From Curtobacterium sp. MCBA15_009 (lineage in GTDB: Bacteria > Actinomycetota > Actinomycetes > Actinomycetales > Microbacteriaceae): a stretch of DNA of 64,000 bases. Position numbers and translations under genes: made by a program. The notes beneath the pieces were generated by a model. The model was given only the letters and a program-made list of their open reading frames with translations, did no database searches and was not told the DNA's origin. How positions within the stretch are numbered: position 1 is the stretch's first letter; every line of letters begins with the position of its first letter. The stretch spans positions 147,129 to 211,128 of the forward strand of contig NZ_MJGO01000012.1 of assembly GCF_001864895.1 (NCBI RefSeq), given 5' to 3'. Below are positions 9,524 through 16,587 of the stretch, piece after piece.

Positions 9524-9595
9524 GCCCCCATAGCTCAGGGGATAGAGCACTGCCCTCCGGAGGCAGGGGCGGAGGTTCGAATCCTCCTGGGGGCA
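9524..9595 (+). tRNA. tRNA-Arg (anticodon CCG)
   Basis: A full cloverleaf can be drawn. The acceptor GCCCCCA pairs with TGGGGGC and is followed by discriminator A. The D-arm is GCTC/GAGC, the anticodon stem CTGCC/GGCAG with loop CTCCGGA gives anticodon CCG, and the T-arm is GGAGG-TTCGAAT-CCTCC. It decodes CGG, a common Arg codon at this GC content. No CCA is encoded. The Pls-like synthetase gene starts 151 bp downstream; I saw no duplicated tRNA 3' end that would mark an attachment site. Confidence 0.97.
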
Positions 9596-9746
9596 CACTT
9601 CTCTTCCTCTCGCGGCTGCGCATCCCGCCGGCTCGTCGTGCCACCGAGCCACGCATCGTCGTGACACCCCGTGTTTCCCTGCGCGTCACCTCGGGTCACT
9701 ACGCTCCTGGGCCGGTCGTCCCGCACGCGACCGGGAAACGAGCACG

Positions 9747-12700
9747 ATGACCCCCGACGCCCCCGCCGGCACCGTGCAGCAGGAGCTCGCGCGCGCGGCC
9801 CATGCGCCCGCGCCCCGCACCCTGCTCGACGTCCTCGCCGCGACGGCCGCCGCGCACCCCGACGCCACCGCGCTCGAGGACCCCGACGGCACTCTCGACT
9901 ACGCCGCCCTGCTCCGCACCGTGCACGATCGGGCCGACGACCTGGCCCGGCGGGGCGTCCGGCGGGGTGACCGGGTCGGGGTGCGGATCCCCTCCGGTGG
10001 GCGCGACCTGTACCTGTCGATCCTCGCCGTGCTCGCCGCCGGGGCGGCGTACGTGCCGGTCGACGCCGACGACCCCGAGGAACGCGCCACCCTGGTGTTC
10101 GGCGAGGCCGGTGTCGTCGGCGTGATCGGTGCGGGCGGCGTCCTGCGGGACCGTGCCGGCGCCGAGCTGCCGGTGACGGACCCTGCGGCGAGCGCCGGAC
10201 TCCCCCGCGAGACCGACGACGCGTGGATCATCTTCACGTCCGGGTCGACGGGTGTGCCGAAGGGCGTGGCGGTCACCCACCGCAGTGCTGCGGCGTTCGT
10301 GGACGCCGAGGCCCGGATGTTCCTGCAGACGGCGCCGATCGGTCCGGGTGACCGGGTGCTGGCGGGGCTGAGCGTGGCGTTCGACGCGTCGTGCGAGGAG
10401 ATGTGGCTGGCGTGGGGGCACGGCGCGGCGCTGGTGCCGGCGCCGCGGTCGTTGGTGCGGACGGGGGTGGACCTCGGGCCGTGGCTCATCGCGCACACCA
10501 TCACGGTGGTGTCGACGGTGCCCACGCTGGCGGCGTTGTGGCCGGACGACGCGCTGGAGCAGGTGCGGCTCGTGATCTTCGGTGGCGAGGCGTGCCCGCC
10601 GGAGCTGGCGGCGCGCATCGCCTCGCGCGATCGGGAGCTCTGGAACACGTACGGTCCGACCGAGGCCACCGTCGTCGCGTGCGGCGCGCTGGTGGACGGC
10701 GGGTCACCGGTGCGGATCGGGCTGCCGCTGGACGGGTGGGACCTGGCCGTCGTCGATGCGTCGGGGGCCCGTGTTGCGCCCGGTGGTGTCGGGGAGCTGG
10801 TGATCGGTGGTGTCGGGCTGGGGCGGTACCTGGACCCGGCGAAGGACGCCGAGAAGTACGCACCGTTCCCCGAGCTCGGGTGGGAGCGGGCGTACCGGAG
10901 TGGGGACCTGGTGCGGTACGAGCCCGAGGGGCTGGTGTTCCAGGGGCGTGCGGACGACCAGGTGAAGCTCGGTGGCCGGCGGATCGAGCTCGGCGAGGTC
11001 GACGCGGCGCTGCAGGCCCTGGACGACGTGGCGGGTGGAGCCGCGGTGGTGCAGCGGACCCCCGCGGGCAACCAGGTGCTGGTCGGCTACGTCGCCCCGG
11101 TGGCCGGCGCGACGGTGGACGTGGCCGCAGCGAACGCCCGGTTGCGCGAGGAGCTGCCGGCCGCCCTGGTGCCGCTGGTCGCGGTGGTGGAGTCGCTGCC
11201 GACGCGGACGTCGGGCAAGGTCGACCGCGCGGCGCTGCCGTGGCCGTTGCCCGGAGCATCGGACGCGGCGGTGCTGCCGGACACGGTGGCGTGGATCGCC
11301 GAGCGGTGGTCGGCGATCCTCGGGGTGCCGGTGGTGAGCGTCGACGACGACTTCTTCGCGCACGGCGGTGGGTCGCTGACGGCGGCGCAGCTCGTGTCGG
11401 CCATCCGGGAGCGGTTCCCGACGACCACGGTCGCGGACGTGTACGACCACCCGCGGATCGGGGCGTTGGCGGCGGCGCTCGACGAGTCCGGGCCGGTGTC
11501 GGCCTCGTCGCGCGACGTGGCTCCGGTCCCCCCGGCGACGGGCCTGCTGATGACGTTGCTCGGACTGCCGGTGCAGGTGCTCCGAGGGCTGCGGGTGCTG
11601 ACCTGGACGGCGCTGGTGGCGGCGGTGCTGCACGCGACGACGCTGCCGTTCCTGCCGGTGCTGCCCTGGCCGGTGCTGGTACTGGCGCTCCTGGTGTTCG
11701 TGACGCCGATCGGCAAGATGGCGCTGACGGTGGTGCTGGCGCGGCTGCTGCTCGCCGGGGTCCGGCCGGGGTCGTACCCGCGTGGCGGTTCGGTGCACCT
11801 GCGGGTGTGGCTGGCCGAGCGCATCGCCGAGGCGGTGGACGGTCCGTCGACGGCGGGCGCCCCGTGGATCAGCTACTACGCCCGGGCGCTCGGTGCGCGG
11901 ATCGGCCGGGACGTCGACCTGCACACGCTGCCGCCGGTGACGGGGATGCTCACGATCGGCAGGCGGGCGTCGATCGAGCCCGAGGTGGACCTGGCCGGGC
12001 ACTGGCTCGACGGCGACGTGTTCCACCTGGGGCACGTGCGCGTCGACGAGGACGCCGTGGTGCGCAGCCGGACGACGCTGCTGCCGGGGGCGCACGTGGG
12101 TGCGGGTGCCGAGGTCACCGCCGGTTCCGCGGTCGGCGGCCCGGTCCCGGCGGGCGAACGCTGGGCAGGGGCGCCGGCGGAGCGTGTCGGGTCGGCCCGT
12201 GACGACCGGGAGGCCCGCCCCGCCGCCCGTCGGCGCTGGCTGCTCGCGTACGGGGCCGGGTCCCTGGCCGTGGCCGGCTTGCCGGTGGTCGGCGTCGCGG
12301 TCGGACTGCTCGTCGCGGTCGCTCTGGTCGGGCGGGCGCCGACCCTGGGCGACGCGCTGCTCCGCGCGCTGCTGACGGTCCCCCTGGCGACCGTCGTCGC
12401 CGGTGCGGTGTACGCGCTGCTGGTGGTGGTCGCGGTGCGGCTGCTCGGCCTCGGCCTGCACGAGGGGCGGCACCCGGTGCGCTCCCGGATCGGCTGGCAG
12501 GTGTGGTCGACCGAGCGGGTGCTCGACGCGGCGCGCACCCTGCTGTTCCCGCTGTACGCCTCGCTCGTGACCCCGGTGTGGCTGCGGCTGCTCGGTGCGC
12601 GGGTCGGTCGGGACACCGAGATCTCGACGGTGCTGCTCATCCCGGCGCTGACGCAGATCGCGTCGGGGGCGTTCCTGGCCGACGACACGATGGTGGCGAC

Positions 12701-13628
12701 GTACGAGCTCGGCGGCGGTCGGGTGCGGATCGGGCGCTCGAAGGTCGGCCGTCGGGCGTTCCTCGGCAACAGCGGGATGACGGGCGCCGGGCGCTCGGTG
12801 CCGCGCGAGGCCCTGGTGGCGGTGCTGTCCGCGGTACCGAAGAAGGCCAAGCGCGGGTCGTCGTGGCTCGGGACCCCGCCGGTGCGGCTGCGGCGTGCGG
12901 CGACGGAGTTCGACGAGGCGCGGACCTTCCGCCCGTCCAGGCGGCTCAAGGTCGCCCGCGGCTGCTGGGAGCTGCTGCGCCTGATCGCCCCGATGGTCTC
13001 CGCCGCCGTCGCGCTCGGCGTGGCCGGGGCACTGCTGGCGCTGTGGTCGGCCGTCGGGATCGGGTGGACGGTGCTGCTCGCCGGGCCGGTGCTCATCGCC
13101 GCCGGTGCCGTCGCCGCCGTGGTGTCGACGATCGCGAAGTGGGCGTTCGTCGGCCGGATCACCGCCAGGGAGCACCCGCTGTGGTCGTCGTTCGTGTGGC
13201 GCAACGAGGTGCAGGACACCTTCGTCGAGACCGTCGCCCGACCGTGGTTCGCCGAGCAGGCAACCGGCACCCCCGCGCTGGCCGTCTGGCTGCGGAGCCT
13301 CGGTGCGACGATCGGCCGAGGGACCTGGCTCGAGACCTACTGGTTGCCGGAGGCCGACCTCGTGTCGATCGGTGCCGGCGCCTCGGTGGCGCGGGGCACC
13401 GTGGTGCAGACGCACCTGTTCCACGACCGGGTGATGCAGCTCGACGCCGTCCGGCTCGACGCCGGCGCGACACTCGGACCGCACAGCGTCGTCCTGCCGG
13501 CGGCGGGCATCGGCACCGGGGCGACGGTCGGGCCGGCCTCGCTCGTCATGCGGGGCGAGCAGGTGCCGGGCGGGTCCCGCTGGTCCGGCAACCCGATCGC
13601 GCCCTGGGCAGCGGACCGTCCGGCGTGA
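9747..13628 (+). CDS. Pls/PosA-type membrane NRPS, putative cationic homopoly(amino acid) synthetase
   Basis: Single-module 1293-aa synthetase. Residues ~25-500 are an adenylation domain: A3 IIFTSGSTGVPKG, A4 FDASCEEMW, A5 NTYGPTEATV, A8 near GRADDQVKLGGRRIE, A10 TSGKVDRA with K491. A carrier domain follows (DDFFAHGGGSLTAAQ; pantetheine site S543). From ~597 there are three pairs of membrane helices (~597-658, ~832-902, ~1075-1132), each followed by a soluble domain with hexapeptide/beta-helix-like repeats (~712-808, ~950-1020, ~1180-1285). There is no ordinary condensation (HHxxxDG) or thioesterase domain. This A-T-6TM-3-domain plan is that of epsilon-poly-L-lysine synthetase Pls and PosA. 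Aligned by eye to GrsA, the specificity residues read DAESIGTVVK, with the acidic E217 expected for a basic amino acid. Lysine is the best guess; ornithine or diaminobutyrate are possible. Confidence 0.85.
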   Translation: MTPDAPAGTVQQELARAAHAPAPRTLLDVLAATAAAHPDATALEDPDGTLDYAALLRTVHDRADDLARRGVRRGDRVGVRIPSGGRDLYLSILAVLAAGAAYVPVDADDPEERATLVFGEAGVVGVIGAGGVLRDRAGAELPVTDPAASAGLPRETDDAWIIFTSGSTGVPKGVAVTHRSAAAFVDAEARMFLQTAPIGPGDRVLAGLSVAFDASCEEMWLAWGHGAALVPAPRSLVRTGVDLGPWLIAHTITVVSTVPTLAALWPDDALEQVRLVIFGGEACPPELAARIASRDRELWNTYGPTEATVVACGALVDGGSPVRIGLPLDGWDLAVVDASGARVAPGGVGELVIGGVGLGRYLDPAKDAEKYAPFPELGWERAYRSGDLVRYEPEGLVFQGRADDQVKLGGRRIELGEVDAALQALDDVAGGAAVVQRTPAGNQVLVGYVAPVAGATVDVAAANARLREELPAALVPLVAVVESLPTRTSGKVDRAALPWPLPGASDAAVLPDTVAWIAERWSAILGVPVVSVDDDFFAHGGGSLTAAQLVSAIRERFPTTTVADVYDHPRIGALAAALDESGPVSASSRDVAPVPPATGLLMTLLGLPVQVLRGLRVLTWTALVAAVLHATTLPFLPVLPWPVLVLALLVFVTPIGKMALTVVLARLLLAGVRPGSYPRGGSVHLRVWLAERIAEAVDGPSTAGAPWISYYARALGARIGRDVDLHTLPPVTGMLTIGRRASIEPEVDLAGHWLDGDVFHLGHVRVDEDAVVRSRTTLLPGAHVGAGAEVTAGSAVGGPVPAGERWAGAPAERVGSARDDREARPAARRRWLLAYGAGSLAVAGLPVVGVAVGLLVAVALVGRAPTLGDALLRALLTVPLATVVAGAVYALLVVVAVRLLGLGLHEGRHPVRSRIGWQVWSTERVLDAARTLLFPLYASLVTPVWLRLLGARVGRDTEISTVLLIPALTQIASGAFLADDTMVATYELGGGRVRIGRSKVGRRAFLGNSGMTGAGRSVPREALVAVLSAVPKKAKRGSSWLGTPPVRLRRAATEFDEARTFRPSRRLKVARGCWELLRLIAPMVSAAVALGVAGALLALWSAVGIGWTVLLAGPVLIAAGAVAAVVSTIAKWAFVGRITAREHPLWSSFVWRNEVQDTFVETVARPWFAEQATGTPALAVWLRSLGATIGRGTWLETYWLPEADLVSIGAGASVARGTVVQTHLFHDRVMQLDAVRLDAGATLGPHSVVLPAAGIGTGATVGPASLVMRGEQVPGGSRWSGNPIAPWAADRPA

Positions 13629-14968
13629 TGGGGTTGACTGGCACCGTGCCGACCTCCGCGACCACCGACCCGTACACCCCGCACAGCGGCGACCGTCGGT
13701 GGAGCGCCGAGCACTACGAGCTCCGGCTCGACTACCGCGTCGCGACGAACCGGCTCGACGCCACGGCGACCATCACGGCGCGGGCGGTCGAGCCGCTCGA
13801 CCGGGTCGTCCTCGACCTGCACGGGCTGCACGTGGAGCGCGTCGACGTCGACGGGCACCGCGCGAAGAAGGTCGCCACGGCGACGCACAAGACCACGGTC
13901 ACCCCGCACAGGCCCATCCCGGCGGGTGCCGCGTTCACCGTGCACGTGCGGTACCGGGGCACCCCGCGACCGGTGCGGAGCGCCTGGGGGCACCTCGGGT
14001 GGGAGGAGCTGACCGACGGCGTCATCGTCGCCGCACAGCCGACCGGTGCCCCGACGTGGTTCCCCTGCAACGACCGGCCGGACGACAAGGCGACGTACCG
14101 CTTCGAGATCGCCACCGAGGACGCCTACGACGTCGTGGCGAACGGCGACCTGCTCGCGAAGGAGCGGGACCGCGCCGGGACCCGCTGGACGTTCGCGACG
14201 GTCGAGCCGATGGCGACGTACCTGGCGACCGTGCAGATCGGTCGGTACCGCACGACCCGGCTCCGCGGCGGCGACGTCCCGGTGACCCTGCACCACCCGG
14301 CCGACCTGGCGGTCGCGGCGCGGACCGACTTCGGCCAGGTGCCGGAGATGCTCGCGCTGTTCGGCGACCGCTTCGGCCCGTACCCGTTCGCGGCGTACGG
14401 GGTCGTGGTCACCGACGACGAGCTCGAGATCCCGCTCGAGGCCCACGGACTCGCCGTGTTCGGCCGGAACCACGTCGACGGCGAGCACGGCACCGACCGG
14501 CTCATCGCGCACGAGCTCGCGCACCAGTGGTTCGGGAACTCGGTGACCCTCACCCGGTGGCGGGACATCTGGCTGCACGAGGGGTTCGCCTGCTACGCCG
14601 AGTGGCTGTGGTCCGAGGAGCGCGGCGGTGACACCGCGGACGACCTCGCCGAGCAGTACCGGCAGGGGCTCCTCGACCAGCCGGAGGACCTGGTGGTCGG
14701 CGACCCGGGCGCGGCGGACATGTTCGACGACCGCGTCTACAAGCGCGGCGCCCTCGCCCTGCACGCCGTCCGCCGCACGCTCGGCGACGACGCCTTCTTC
14801 GCCGGACTGCGGCGCGTCACCGAACGGCACCGGCACGGCTCGGTGACGGTGCCGGACGTCCTCGACGCGTTCGCGCACGCGGCCGGCACCACGTCCGACG
14901 CCGTGCACGCGGTCACCGCCCCGTGGATCGACAGGACGGCAGTGCCCGGCGCGGTCGGACCGCGCTAG
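13628..14968 (+). CDS. M1 family zinc aminopeptidase (short form)
   Basis: The 446-aa protein has the M1 zinc site HELAHQ (H295, E296, H299) with the third ligand E318 in WLHEGF, preceded by EIPLEAHG in place of the GAMEN exopeptidase motif. It consists of the N-terminal beta domain and catalytic domain only, without the C-terminal helical domain of long M1 enzymes. No signal peptide is visible. The ATG start overlaps the stop of the Pls-like synthetase (TGATG), so the two are co-translated. In that context a role in trimming or degrading the polymer, or in self-protection, is a plausible inference. A GTG 18 bp downstream is an alternative start. Confidence 0.88.
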   Translation: MGLTGTVPTSATTDPYTPHSGDRRWSAEHYELRLDYRVATNRLDATATITARAVEPLDRVVLDLHGLHVERVDVDGHRAKKVATATHKTTVTPHRPIPAGAAFTVHVRYRGTPRPVRSAWGHLGWEELTDGVIVAAQPTGAPTWFPCNDRPDDKATYRFEIATEDAYDVVANGDLLAKERDRAGTRWTFATVEPMATYLATVQIGRYRTTRLRGGDVPVTLHHPADLAVAARTDFGQVPEMLALFGDRFGPYPFAAYGVVVTDDELEIPLEAHGLAVFGRNHVDGEHGTDRLIAHELAHQWFGNSVTLTRWRDIWLHEGFACYAEWLWSEERGGDTADDLAEQYRQGLLDQPEDLVVGDPGAADMFDDRVYKRGALALHAVRRTLGDDAFFAGLRRVTERHRHGSVTVPDVLDAFAHAAGTTSDAVHAVTAPWIDRTAVPGAVGPR

Positions 14969-15237
14969 CCCGCCAGTTCCCCGACGTCGGTCGGGGTGCT
15001 GCTGACCTCGGCCCACACGGCGTCGAGCGAGACGCCGACGACCCCGGCGACGGACGCGATGGTCGAGAACGCCGGCGTCGCGATGCGGCCGGTCTCGATC
15101 TTCCGGAGCGTCTCGGGCGAGATGCCCGCCCGCAGTGCGGTGTCGACGATCGACCGCGGACCACGGGCCGCACGCAGCAGTGCGCCGAGTCGGCGACCGC
15201 GGGCGAGTTCGTCGGGGGTGAGGGGCAGTCGGACCAT
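14965..15237 (-). CDS. Small XRE-family helix-turn-helix regulator
   Basis: The 90-aa protein is almost only a Cro/CI-type DNA-binding domain: GRRLGALLRAARGPRSIVDT, then the recognition region ALRAGISPETLRKIETGR (the IETGR ending is typical of XRE proteins). It overlaps the 3' end of the M1 gene by 4 bp in convergent orientation and is divergent from the M24 gene, with starts only 32 bp apart. Two palindromes fill that spacer, so autoregulation and control of the M24 gene are likely. Confidence 0.85.
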   Translation of the reverse strand: MVRLPLTPDELARGRRLGALLRAARGPRSIVDTALRAGISPETLRKIETGRIATPAFSTIASVAGVVGVSLDAVWAEVSSTPTDVGELAG

Positions 15238-15249
15238 GGCGTCATGGTA

Positions 15250-15275
15250 ATACCGGTATGATCATCCGGATGATC
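15250..15275. promoter_or_regulatory. Paired palindromes in the XRE/M24 divergent spacer (candidate operator)
   Basis: ATACCGGTAT (15250-15259) and GATCATCCGGATGATC (15260-15275) are both perfect palindromes lying side by side between the divergent starts. TATGAT at 15257-15262 is a good -10 element for the plus strand. It would place initiation at about the ATG at 15270, implying a leaderless M24 mRNA. A repressor bound here would cover both promoters. Confidence 0.6.
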
Positions 15276-16037
15276 GAGATCCTCACCCCGGCCGAGGTCG
15301 ACCGGGCCCGCGCCACCGGCGCCCTGGTCGGCACGATCCTGCAGACCCTCCGCGAACGCACCCGGGTCGGCACGAACCTGCTCGACGTCGACCGGTGGGC
15401 GAAGGCCATGATCGAGGACGCCGGGGCCGACTCCTGCTACGTCGACTACGCCCCCTCGTTCGGACGCGGCCCCTTCGGGCACCACATCTGCACCGCCGTC
15501 AACGACGCCGTCCTGCACGGGCTCCCCCACGACCGCGCCCTGGCCGACGGGGACCTGCTCACACTGGACCTCGCGGTCTCCCTCGACGGCATCGCGGCCG
15601 ACGCCGCCGTCAGCTTCGTCGTCGGCACCCCGCGCGACGAGGACCTCGCACTCATCGACGCGACCGAGCGTGCCCTGGCGGCGGGCATCGCCGCGGCCGG
15701 ACCCGGCGCGCGCACCGGCGACCTGTCGCACGCCATCGGCACCGTCCTCGAGTCCGCCGGCTTCCCGGTGAACGTCGAGTTCGGCGGCCACGGCATCGGC
15801 TCGACCATGCACCAGGACCCGCACGTGTCGAACACCGGTCGCCCCGGCCGCGGCTACACCCTGCGGCCGGGTCTGCTGCTCGCCCTCGAACCCTGGGTGA
15901 TGGCGGACACCGACCGGCTCGTCACCGACGCCGACGGCTGGACCCTGCGGAGCGCCACCGGCGCCCGGACGGCCCACACGGAGCACACCATCGCGATCAC
16001 CCAGGACGGCGCCGAGGTGCTCACGCTGCCACGGTGA
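15270..16037 (+). CDS. Methionine aminopeptidase-like M24 metallopeptidase
   Basis: The 255-aa protein has a pita-bread fold with all five metal ligands recognisable: the two aspartates in LTLDLAVSLDGIAADAAV, H in GGHGIG, and glutamates in LALEPWVM and TEHTIAI. The length and the VNDAVLHGLP loop match type I methionine aminopeptidase. It may be the housekeeping enzyme, an accessory copy, or a peptidase dedicated to the neighbouring cluster; the sequence does not settle this. The start is set at ATG 15270 (MIEILTPAEV) because the -10 at 15257 predicts a leaderless message; an ATG at 15258 is in frame. Confidence 0.88.
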   Translation: MIEILTPAEVDRARATGALVGTILQTLRERTRVGTNLLDVDRWAKAMIEDAGADSCYVDYAPSFGRGPFGHHICTAVNDAVLHGLPHDRALADGDLLTLDLAVSLDGIAADAAVSFVVGTPRDEDLALIDATERALAAGIAAAGPGARTGDLSHAIGTVLESAGFPVNVEFGGHGIGSTMHQDPHVSNTGRPGRGYTLRPGLLLALEPWVMADTDRLVTDADGWTLRSATGARTAHTEHTIAITQDGAEVLTLPR

Positions 16038-16587
16038 CGCGGACCCCGCCCGCCGCCACCGCGAGCACCGTGTCGGCGGCGGGGAACAACACCGTCACCG
16101 GGTGCTCGGTCCCCTCGAGGACGGCGGTGGCGCGGCGGAGGTCGACCTCGACGTTCCGCGGGTCGACGCGCAGCCCCCGACCGTCGCGCTTCAGCACGGC
16201 CTCCTTGACGGCCCACAGCGCGGCGAGCTGCGTCGTGTCGCCACGTGCAGCGGCCAGCTCGCGCACCGTGAAGGCGTCGAGCGGCGCGGCGGCCACCCGC
16301 GACGCGCGCTCGACGTCGACACCGAGCGGTCCGGGGCCGACGGCGATCGCGACCACACCGGTCGTGCGCGACAGGCTCACCCCGACGTCGGTGCCGTGCA
16401 CCGTCGCCACGGGCCGTCCGTGGTCGGTCCCCGCGCAGTGCGGACAGACGCGCCCCGCGCGCACCGCGTCCACGTCGACGGCCGCAGCGGACGCGACGGC
16501 GGCGACCAGGGCCTCCCGGTCGGCGTCGCGGTCCCGACCCGGCGCTCGGAGCGTCACCGTGACGTCACGGAGGCGCGGCTCAGCCAT
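16021..16587 (-). CDS. Sfp-type 4'-phosphopantetheinyl transferase
   Basis: Transfers phosphopantetheine from CoA to a carrier-domain serine. The 188-aa product carries the two family motifs LGVDVER (Mg/CoA site) and WAVKEAVLKRDGRGL, plus the N-terminal CPHCAGTDHGRP (usually CxxCGxxxHGKP). It converges on the M24 gene with a 17-bp overlap. The only carrier domain in the window is S543 of the Pls-like protein, so this is its likely activating enzyme. An in-frame ATG at 16617 could add ten residues. Confidence 0.92.
   Translation of the reverse strand: MAEPRLRDVTVTLRAPGRDRDADREALVAAVASAAAVDVDAVRAGRVCPHCAGTDHGRPVATVHGTDVGVSLSRTTGVVAIAVGPGPLGVDVERASRVAAAPLDAFTVRELAAARGDTTQLAALWAVKEAVLKRDGRGLRVDPRNVEVDLRRATAVLEGTEHPVTVLFPAADTVLAVAAGGVRVTVAA

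Follow-up and report, generated by a model that had tools for sequence, protein, structure and literature searches.

A synthetase gene in Curtobacterium sp. MCBA15_009 (genome of 3.65 Mb, labelled G000) raises the question of what it makes and which of its neighbours take part. The window, which is the whole stretch of DNA analysed, is 64,000 nucleotides long. A first-pass annotation had read five of its genes as one set for a cationic homopolymer, namely a Pls-type synthetase, an overlapping M1 peptidase, an XRE regulator, an M24 peptidase and a PPTase. The evidence given below points to a smaller set, and the synthetase, the M1 peptidase and the PPTase very probably form a three-gene system for ε-linked poly-L-lysine (or oligo-lysine).

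The tRNA-Arg(CCG) gene (9524..9596, forward strand) lies upstream of pls. The ATG of the M1 gene and the TGA stop of pls have one base in common (TGATG). The XRE gene is convergent to the M1 gene and the M24 gene is divergent from the XRE gene. The PPTase gene is convergent to M24, and its end is situated inside the 3' end of M24.

Domain organization and distribution of the synthetase

The pls gene (9747..13628, forward strand) encodes an ε-poly-L-lysine-synthetase-like protein of 1293 aa. AMP-binding and PP-binding domains were identified in it by profile match, and domain analysis found no C or TE domain. The adenylation (A) domain covers residues 5-504 (9759..11258, forward strand), as placed by alignment with 7wew and by its pocket letters. 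The peptidyl carrier domain (11292..11480, forward strand; PF00550, 50.1 bits) contains Ser543 in a GGGSL motif as the predicted phosphopantetheine site. The C-terminal polymerisation region (NRPS_term_dom; 11553..13598, forward strand) matched the TIGR02353 terminal domain in full length at residues 603-1284, scoring 686.8 bits where the curated cut-off is 423.1. One A domain, one PCP and a TIGR02353 match over cut-off place the protein in the Pls/PosA family. Among solved structures the closest was 7wew, an ε-poly-L-lysine synthase (647.8 bits), and the second best was linear gramicidin synthetase (403 bits). The Pls-type domain plan claimed at first pass, and the likeness of its C-terminal region to the Pls/PosA terminal domain, are thus borne out.

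The six TM helices of the terminal region are paired into three hairpins, and an acyltransferase-like beta-helix region comes after each hairpin. The published model of this region consists of six TM helices with three left-handed beta-helices (excerpt of PMC10522769). An AlphaFold2 model of residues 592-1293, built from 20 sequences of alignment A2 (mean pLDDT 79.8, pTM 0.85), showed the same order of elements as that model. Hexapeptide acyltransferases topped the Foldseek and VIA-align 2 rankings for this region with modest scores.

TIGR02353 matches over cut-off were present in 59 of 66 Curtobacterium genomes (57 of the 62 good ones). For the family as a whole the figure was 80 of 199 genomes, representing 40 of its 85 genera. 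Corynebacterium glutamicum was the one genome among 14 named controls which matched TIGR02353 at E up to 1e-60. In 10 genus pairs, dN/dS was 0.06-0.12 for pls, 0.02-0.16 for argS, 0.12-0.26 for M1 and 0.31-0.44 for PPTase, and pls is under purifying selection within the genus. The PPTase (16021-16587) values exceeded those of pls, M1 and M24. A second TIGR02353 synthetase was observed in G212 (L221) with no M1 or PPTase match adjoining, and two TIGR02353 matches were also present in each of the genomes G150 and G264, which are congeneric with G212.

The M1 peptidase and its predicted location

The M1 metallopeptidase gene (13628..14968, forward strand) encodes 446 aa counted from the ATG and matched PF01433 and PF17900. 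An M1 gene followed pls in all 22 fetched loci of the genus, L055 being cut by a contig end. Outside the genus, 40 loci representing 39 genera of the family were compared, and a same-strand M1 was found behind pls in all of them except L221 (39 of 40). In other families of the order, five of eight loci had a same-strand M1 after pls. Of the remaining three, L058 showed a weak M1-like match on the opposite strand; L059 and L060, partial copies in one genome, were without M1.

The wider set of named loci was the best 80 of at least 583 relatives from a mixed A-domain alignment. In these best 80 of at least 583, 67 loci had an M1 gene no more than 600 bases behind pls and 13 did not. Among these 13 of the best 80, L069, L122 and L127 end at or inside pls, L133 has only 754 bases left and L090 has its M1 behind a split hit, and the other eight, which lack M1, are L073, L076, L077, L082, L100, L101, L113 and L114. 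All five Kitasatospora loci of the best 80 of at least 583 (L076, L077, L082, L101 and L113) showed no M1 match after pls. Overlap or near abutment of M1 and pls was general in the fetched loci, and the overlap was exactly 4 bases in 41 of 68 named loci drawn from the best 80 of at least 583.

The window M1 has HELAHQ at 295, E318 and Y371. HExxH was present in all 95 M1 proteins compared, and H295, E296, H299, E318 and Y371 were invariant. Among the 120 M1 homologues listed, those named down to P0072 came from Curtobacterium and lower ones from Cryobacterium and Herbiconiux. In Streptomyces albulus, pls and pldII make up an operon in which the two genes overlap by 4 bp (excerpt of PMC4361855), and PldII is located outside the membrane, is the main degrading enzyme and is needed for self-protection (excerpt of PMC9223678). 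The window locus resembles this pair, as far as excerpts of PMC4361855 and PMC9223678 describe it, in domain plan, in the pocket letters of 7wew and in an M1 gene directly behind and overlapping pls. With HExxH, a distal Glu and a gene overlapping the pls end, the window M1 is a putative PldII-type enzyme. The processing or self-protection role first assigned to it, which it would probably fill, is supported.

An RR pair with a hydrophobic N-terminus was found in eight of 95 M1 proteins, all from Streptomyces loci, and in one of these (L067) the A domain is 92% identical to 7wew. In the other 87, including those of other Streptomyces loci and the window M1, the hydrophobic N-terminus was missing; hydropathy gave no signal peptide, RR pair or hydrophobic N-terminus for the window protein. 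The M1 starts were taken nearest to the pls stop, therefore some N-termini may be wrong. The window M1 is without the export signal of the eight Streptomyces proteins, therefore its role may differ, and a cytosolic M1, as predicted here, would be a real difference from PldII.

This prediction also bears on the place of the polymer. It could be intracellular, acting in charge balancing, storage or stress with turnover by a cytosolic M1, rather than a secreted antimicrobial. The 87 M1 proteins without hydrophobic N-terminus are consistent with this, as are the occurrence of pls in most good genomes of the genus under purifying selection, as for a core function, and the silence of C. variabile in culture (excerpt of PMC8117764). 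But known ε-PL is secreted and antimicrobial, and a cytosolic M1 would fit self-protection against unfinished or returning polymer too; we regard an intracellular polymer as improbable. Just as improbable is the idea that Curtobacterium and its Micrococcales relatives run a near-core polymer cycle in the cytosol instead of making chiefly a secreted antibiotic. The same small chance is given to its steps, in which a membrane synthetase with its own PPTase would build the polycation and a signal-less M1 from the overlapping gene would recycle it. The preferred reading remains a poly-lysine system in which the M1 peptidase would protect the cell.

The substrate pocket

The pocket residues of Pls were located by motif and by GrsA-numbering offsets as we assume them. 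They read DAESIGTVVK at residues 213, 214, 217, 256, 277, 279, 301, 309, 310 and 491, and in the alignment the letters equal those of 7wew, with 67% identity between the two A domains. Among the 28 loci fetched from the genus and the order, 25 had the pocket unchanged, and two (L047 and L053) showed one I-to-V change. The third variant, L058, is 36% identical with the pocket DFEYNGTVTK. L058 (genome G033) represents a divergent synthetase with its M1-like match on the opposite strand, and possibly uses another diamino acid.

Alanine at pocket position two, which the window Pls has too, is a mark of lysine-activating members of the family (excerpt of PMC10522769). The lysine-type pocket, together with a Pls as the nearest enzyme with solved structure, makes lysine the best fit, and the cationic homopolymer proposed in the first-pass annotation is probable. 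Enzymes for other diamino acids are known within the Pls/PosA family (excerpts of PMC10522769 and PMC8117764), and pocket codes are predictions and no proof, so that polymerisation of ornithine, diaminobutyrate, diaminopropionate or β-lysine by the window enzyme was also considered. PosA, the δ-poly-L-ornithine synthetase of Acinetobacter, shares the terminal polymerisation region with its three-fold beta-helix model, but its pocket for ornithine is DMEHNGTVSK in contrast to DAESIGTVVK of the window Pls, and the β-lysine enzyme has DGESISVVNK (excerpt of PMC10522769). The peptidase operon is likewise the context of the lysine enzyme, unlike that of the other three synthetases (excerpt of PMC8117764). 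With a pocket equal to that of the lysine enzyme 7wew, another diamino acid is unlikely, slightly more so than an intracellular polymer, and the product of the window locus is most likely ε-poly-L-lysine.

The PPTase and its linkage with pls

The PPTase gene (16021..16587, reverse strand) encodes an Sfp-like 4'-phosphopantetheinyl transferase of 188 aa (PF01648), the presumed loader of Pls Ser543 by its linkage and joint absence with pls. It was found behind pls in all 21 genus loci with enough sequence. In the family outside the genus, a convergent PPTase occurred in 34 of the 40 loci compared (39 genera) and was not beside pls in the other six (L202, L205, L220, L221, L224 and L225). Within the family of the window, the family match and consistent occurrence with pls thus go together, and the activating role first proposed for this gene gains support. 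Farther away the linkage was found in two of eight loci from other families of the order, and in nine of the 80 named loci (best 80 of at least 583). Those nine of the best 80 belong to Arthrobacter, Pseudarthrobacter, Humibacillus, Brachybacterium or Rhodoglobus, all of which we take to be Micrococcales. In L132 the PPTase is on the other side of pls, and in L140 it is in the other orientation. No PPTase was found near pls in the eight Streptomyces loci, whereas it is present at the window locus.

The window genome has three PF01648 matches including the window PPTase. With gene names read from translations, the second is an AcpS-like protein of 123 aa between glmS- and alr-like genes, and the third is an AcpS-like protein of 125 aa, with a small carrier and an acyl-CoA-dehydrogenase-like gene alongside. 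The PP-binding matches are Pls, the fatty-acid ACP and the small carrier by the acyl-CoA-dehydrogenase-like gene. Since the other PPTases are AcpS-like and the carriers few, Pls would be the natural client of the window PPTase. On contig C23 of the same genome, outside the window, L062 and L066 represent a small AcpS-like PPTase with a carrier and an acyl-CoA-dehydrogenase-like gene directly after it, which form a separate mini carrier system.

The XRE/M24 pair and joint absence of the trio

The XRE regulator (14965..15237, reverse strand; 90 aa) and the M24 protein (15258..16037, forward strand; TIGR00500), a type I methionyl aminopeptidase paralogue, are neighbours which we judge to be outside the unit by their conservation across loci. 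Of the 21 genus loci that carry the trio and have enough sequence, 14 have the pair between the M1 and PPTase genes and seven are without it. Five of those seven genomes (G013, G014, G019, G020 and G021) have XRE beside M24 elsewhere, and the other two (G007 and G022) gave no XRE match at E up to 1e-10. No XRE or M24 match was found beside pls in any of the 40 loci that represent the 39 other family genera. The synteny across the family on which the five-gene set had been made to depend therefore held for M1 (39 of 40) and PPTase (34 of 40) and failed for XRE/M24 (0 of 40). As a divergent pair (14965-16037), XRE/M24 could, as a guess, be a resistance-type duplicate, a spare MetAP with its own regulator.

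Five good genomes of the genus gave no TIGR02353 match. In four of them (G045, G054, G071 and G072) the argS locus with tRNA-Arg(CCG) behind it was found. The pls-linked M1 was not found in any of the four, where a protein of only 28-30% identity was left, and a genome-wide search found no PPTase in any of them. Both M1 and PPTase were present in all five pls-bearing comparison genomes. The fifth pls-less genome, G078, was left out of this count. Its locus L190 showed a PPTase match to residues 2-78 only, with pls and M1 not found, which suggests either that the contig breaks there or that the loss is under way.

G054 is positioned within the pls-bearing clade and has kept XRE and M24, with pls/M1 and PPTase gone on either side. 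G045, G071 and G072, which are also without XRE, group together outside the trio clade under midpoint rooting. Since these three of the four pls-less genomes cluster together, the joint absence represents about two events, one of which is a loss if the tree is right. These three need not have lost XRE with pls, since they are outside the trio clade. Their being without XRE also leaves G054 as the single genome behind the argument that XRE stays when the trio goes. The pattern indicates that synthetase, M1 and PPTase are a unit and XRE/M24 a passenger. A set of five in which XRE would be the regulator and M24 a second processing enzyme gains some colour from the pair's place between M1 and PPTase in the window and two thirds of the genus loci and from the lack of XRE in three of four pls-less genomes. 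It is very unlikely given the loci without the pair, the XRE placed elsewhere by M24 or missing, and G054, and the control and second-peptidase roles first assigned to these two genes are not supported.

Proposed mechanism and relation to known systems

What the analysis shows is the family and architecture of Pls, its lysine-type pocket, the overlap of the genes, their conservation and the joint absence. The mechanism proposed is inferred as to the actual substrate, the polymer with its length and export, and the action of M1 and PPTase upon it. The PPTase would put 4'-phosphopantetheine on Ser543 of Pls. L-lysine would be activated by the A domain and then loaded on the carrier. The C-terminal region, embedded in the membrane and carrying three beta-helix units, would join the α-carboxyl of one lysine to the ε-amine of another until release, and the polymer would be trimmed or destroyed by M1, by which the cell would be protected. 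XRE and M24 would be a separate pair sitting between M1 and PPTase in a part of the genus.

Microbacterium, Agrococcus, Leifsonia and Plantibacter presumably belong to the same bacterial family as the window. Predictions of ε-PL clusters exist for Agrococcus and Microbacterium, compared there with Leifsonia (excerpt of PMC12067966), and for Plantibacter (excerpt of PMC13188922); the enzyme type is that of the window and the genera are different. The excerpts of these two papers contain no discussion of joint loss, PPTase linkage or M1 location. The Pls of Corynebacterium variabile produced ε-PL in S. coelicolor, but no ε-PL was detectable from C. variabile itself or from C. glutamicum carrying its gene (excerpt of PMC8117764). 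Its product is shown in that host, whereas the window Pls is known from sequence. Homologues in Microbacterium among others are given in the same excerpt, and the words PPTase and phosphopantethein- are absent from the main text of PMC8117764. The excerpt of PMC4361855 likewise has no description of a PPTase beside pls, and excerpts of PMC9606270, PMC10456417, PMC12689991 and PMC7438953 do not tie such a product to Curtobacterium. The literature searched gave no product, expression or enzyme test of any Curtobacterium locus. The remark at first pass that no product is described for this family stands for measured products in that literature, but has to be narrowed in view of the predicted ε-PL clusters and the Microbacterium homologues.

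What was already known is the prediction of ε-PL clusters in the same family and the proven Corynebacterium homologue. New here are the link of a PPTase with pls in Micrococcales, the joint absence of the trio, and an M1 that lacks the export signal of the eight Streptomyces loci. A probable poly-lysine synthetase is present in 57 of 62 good Curtobacterium genomes, and it is joint absence rather than nearness that tells which of its neighbours belong to it. The linked PPTase may be a missing part where such genes are silent in other hosts. Genomes without the trio, G054 among them, offer a natural comparison.
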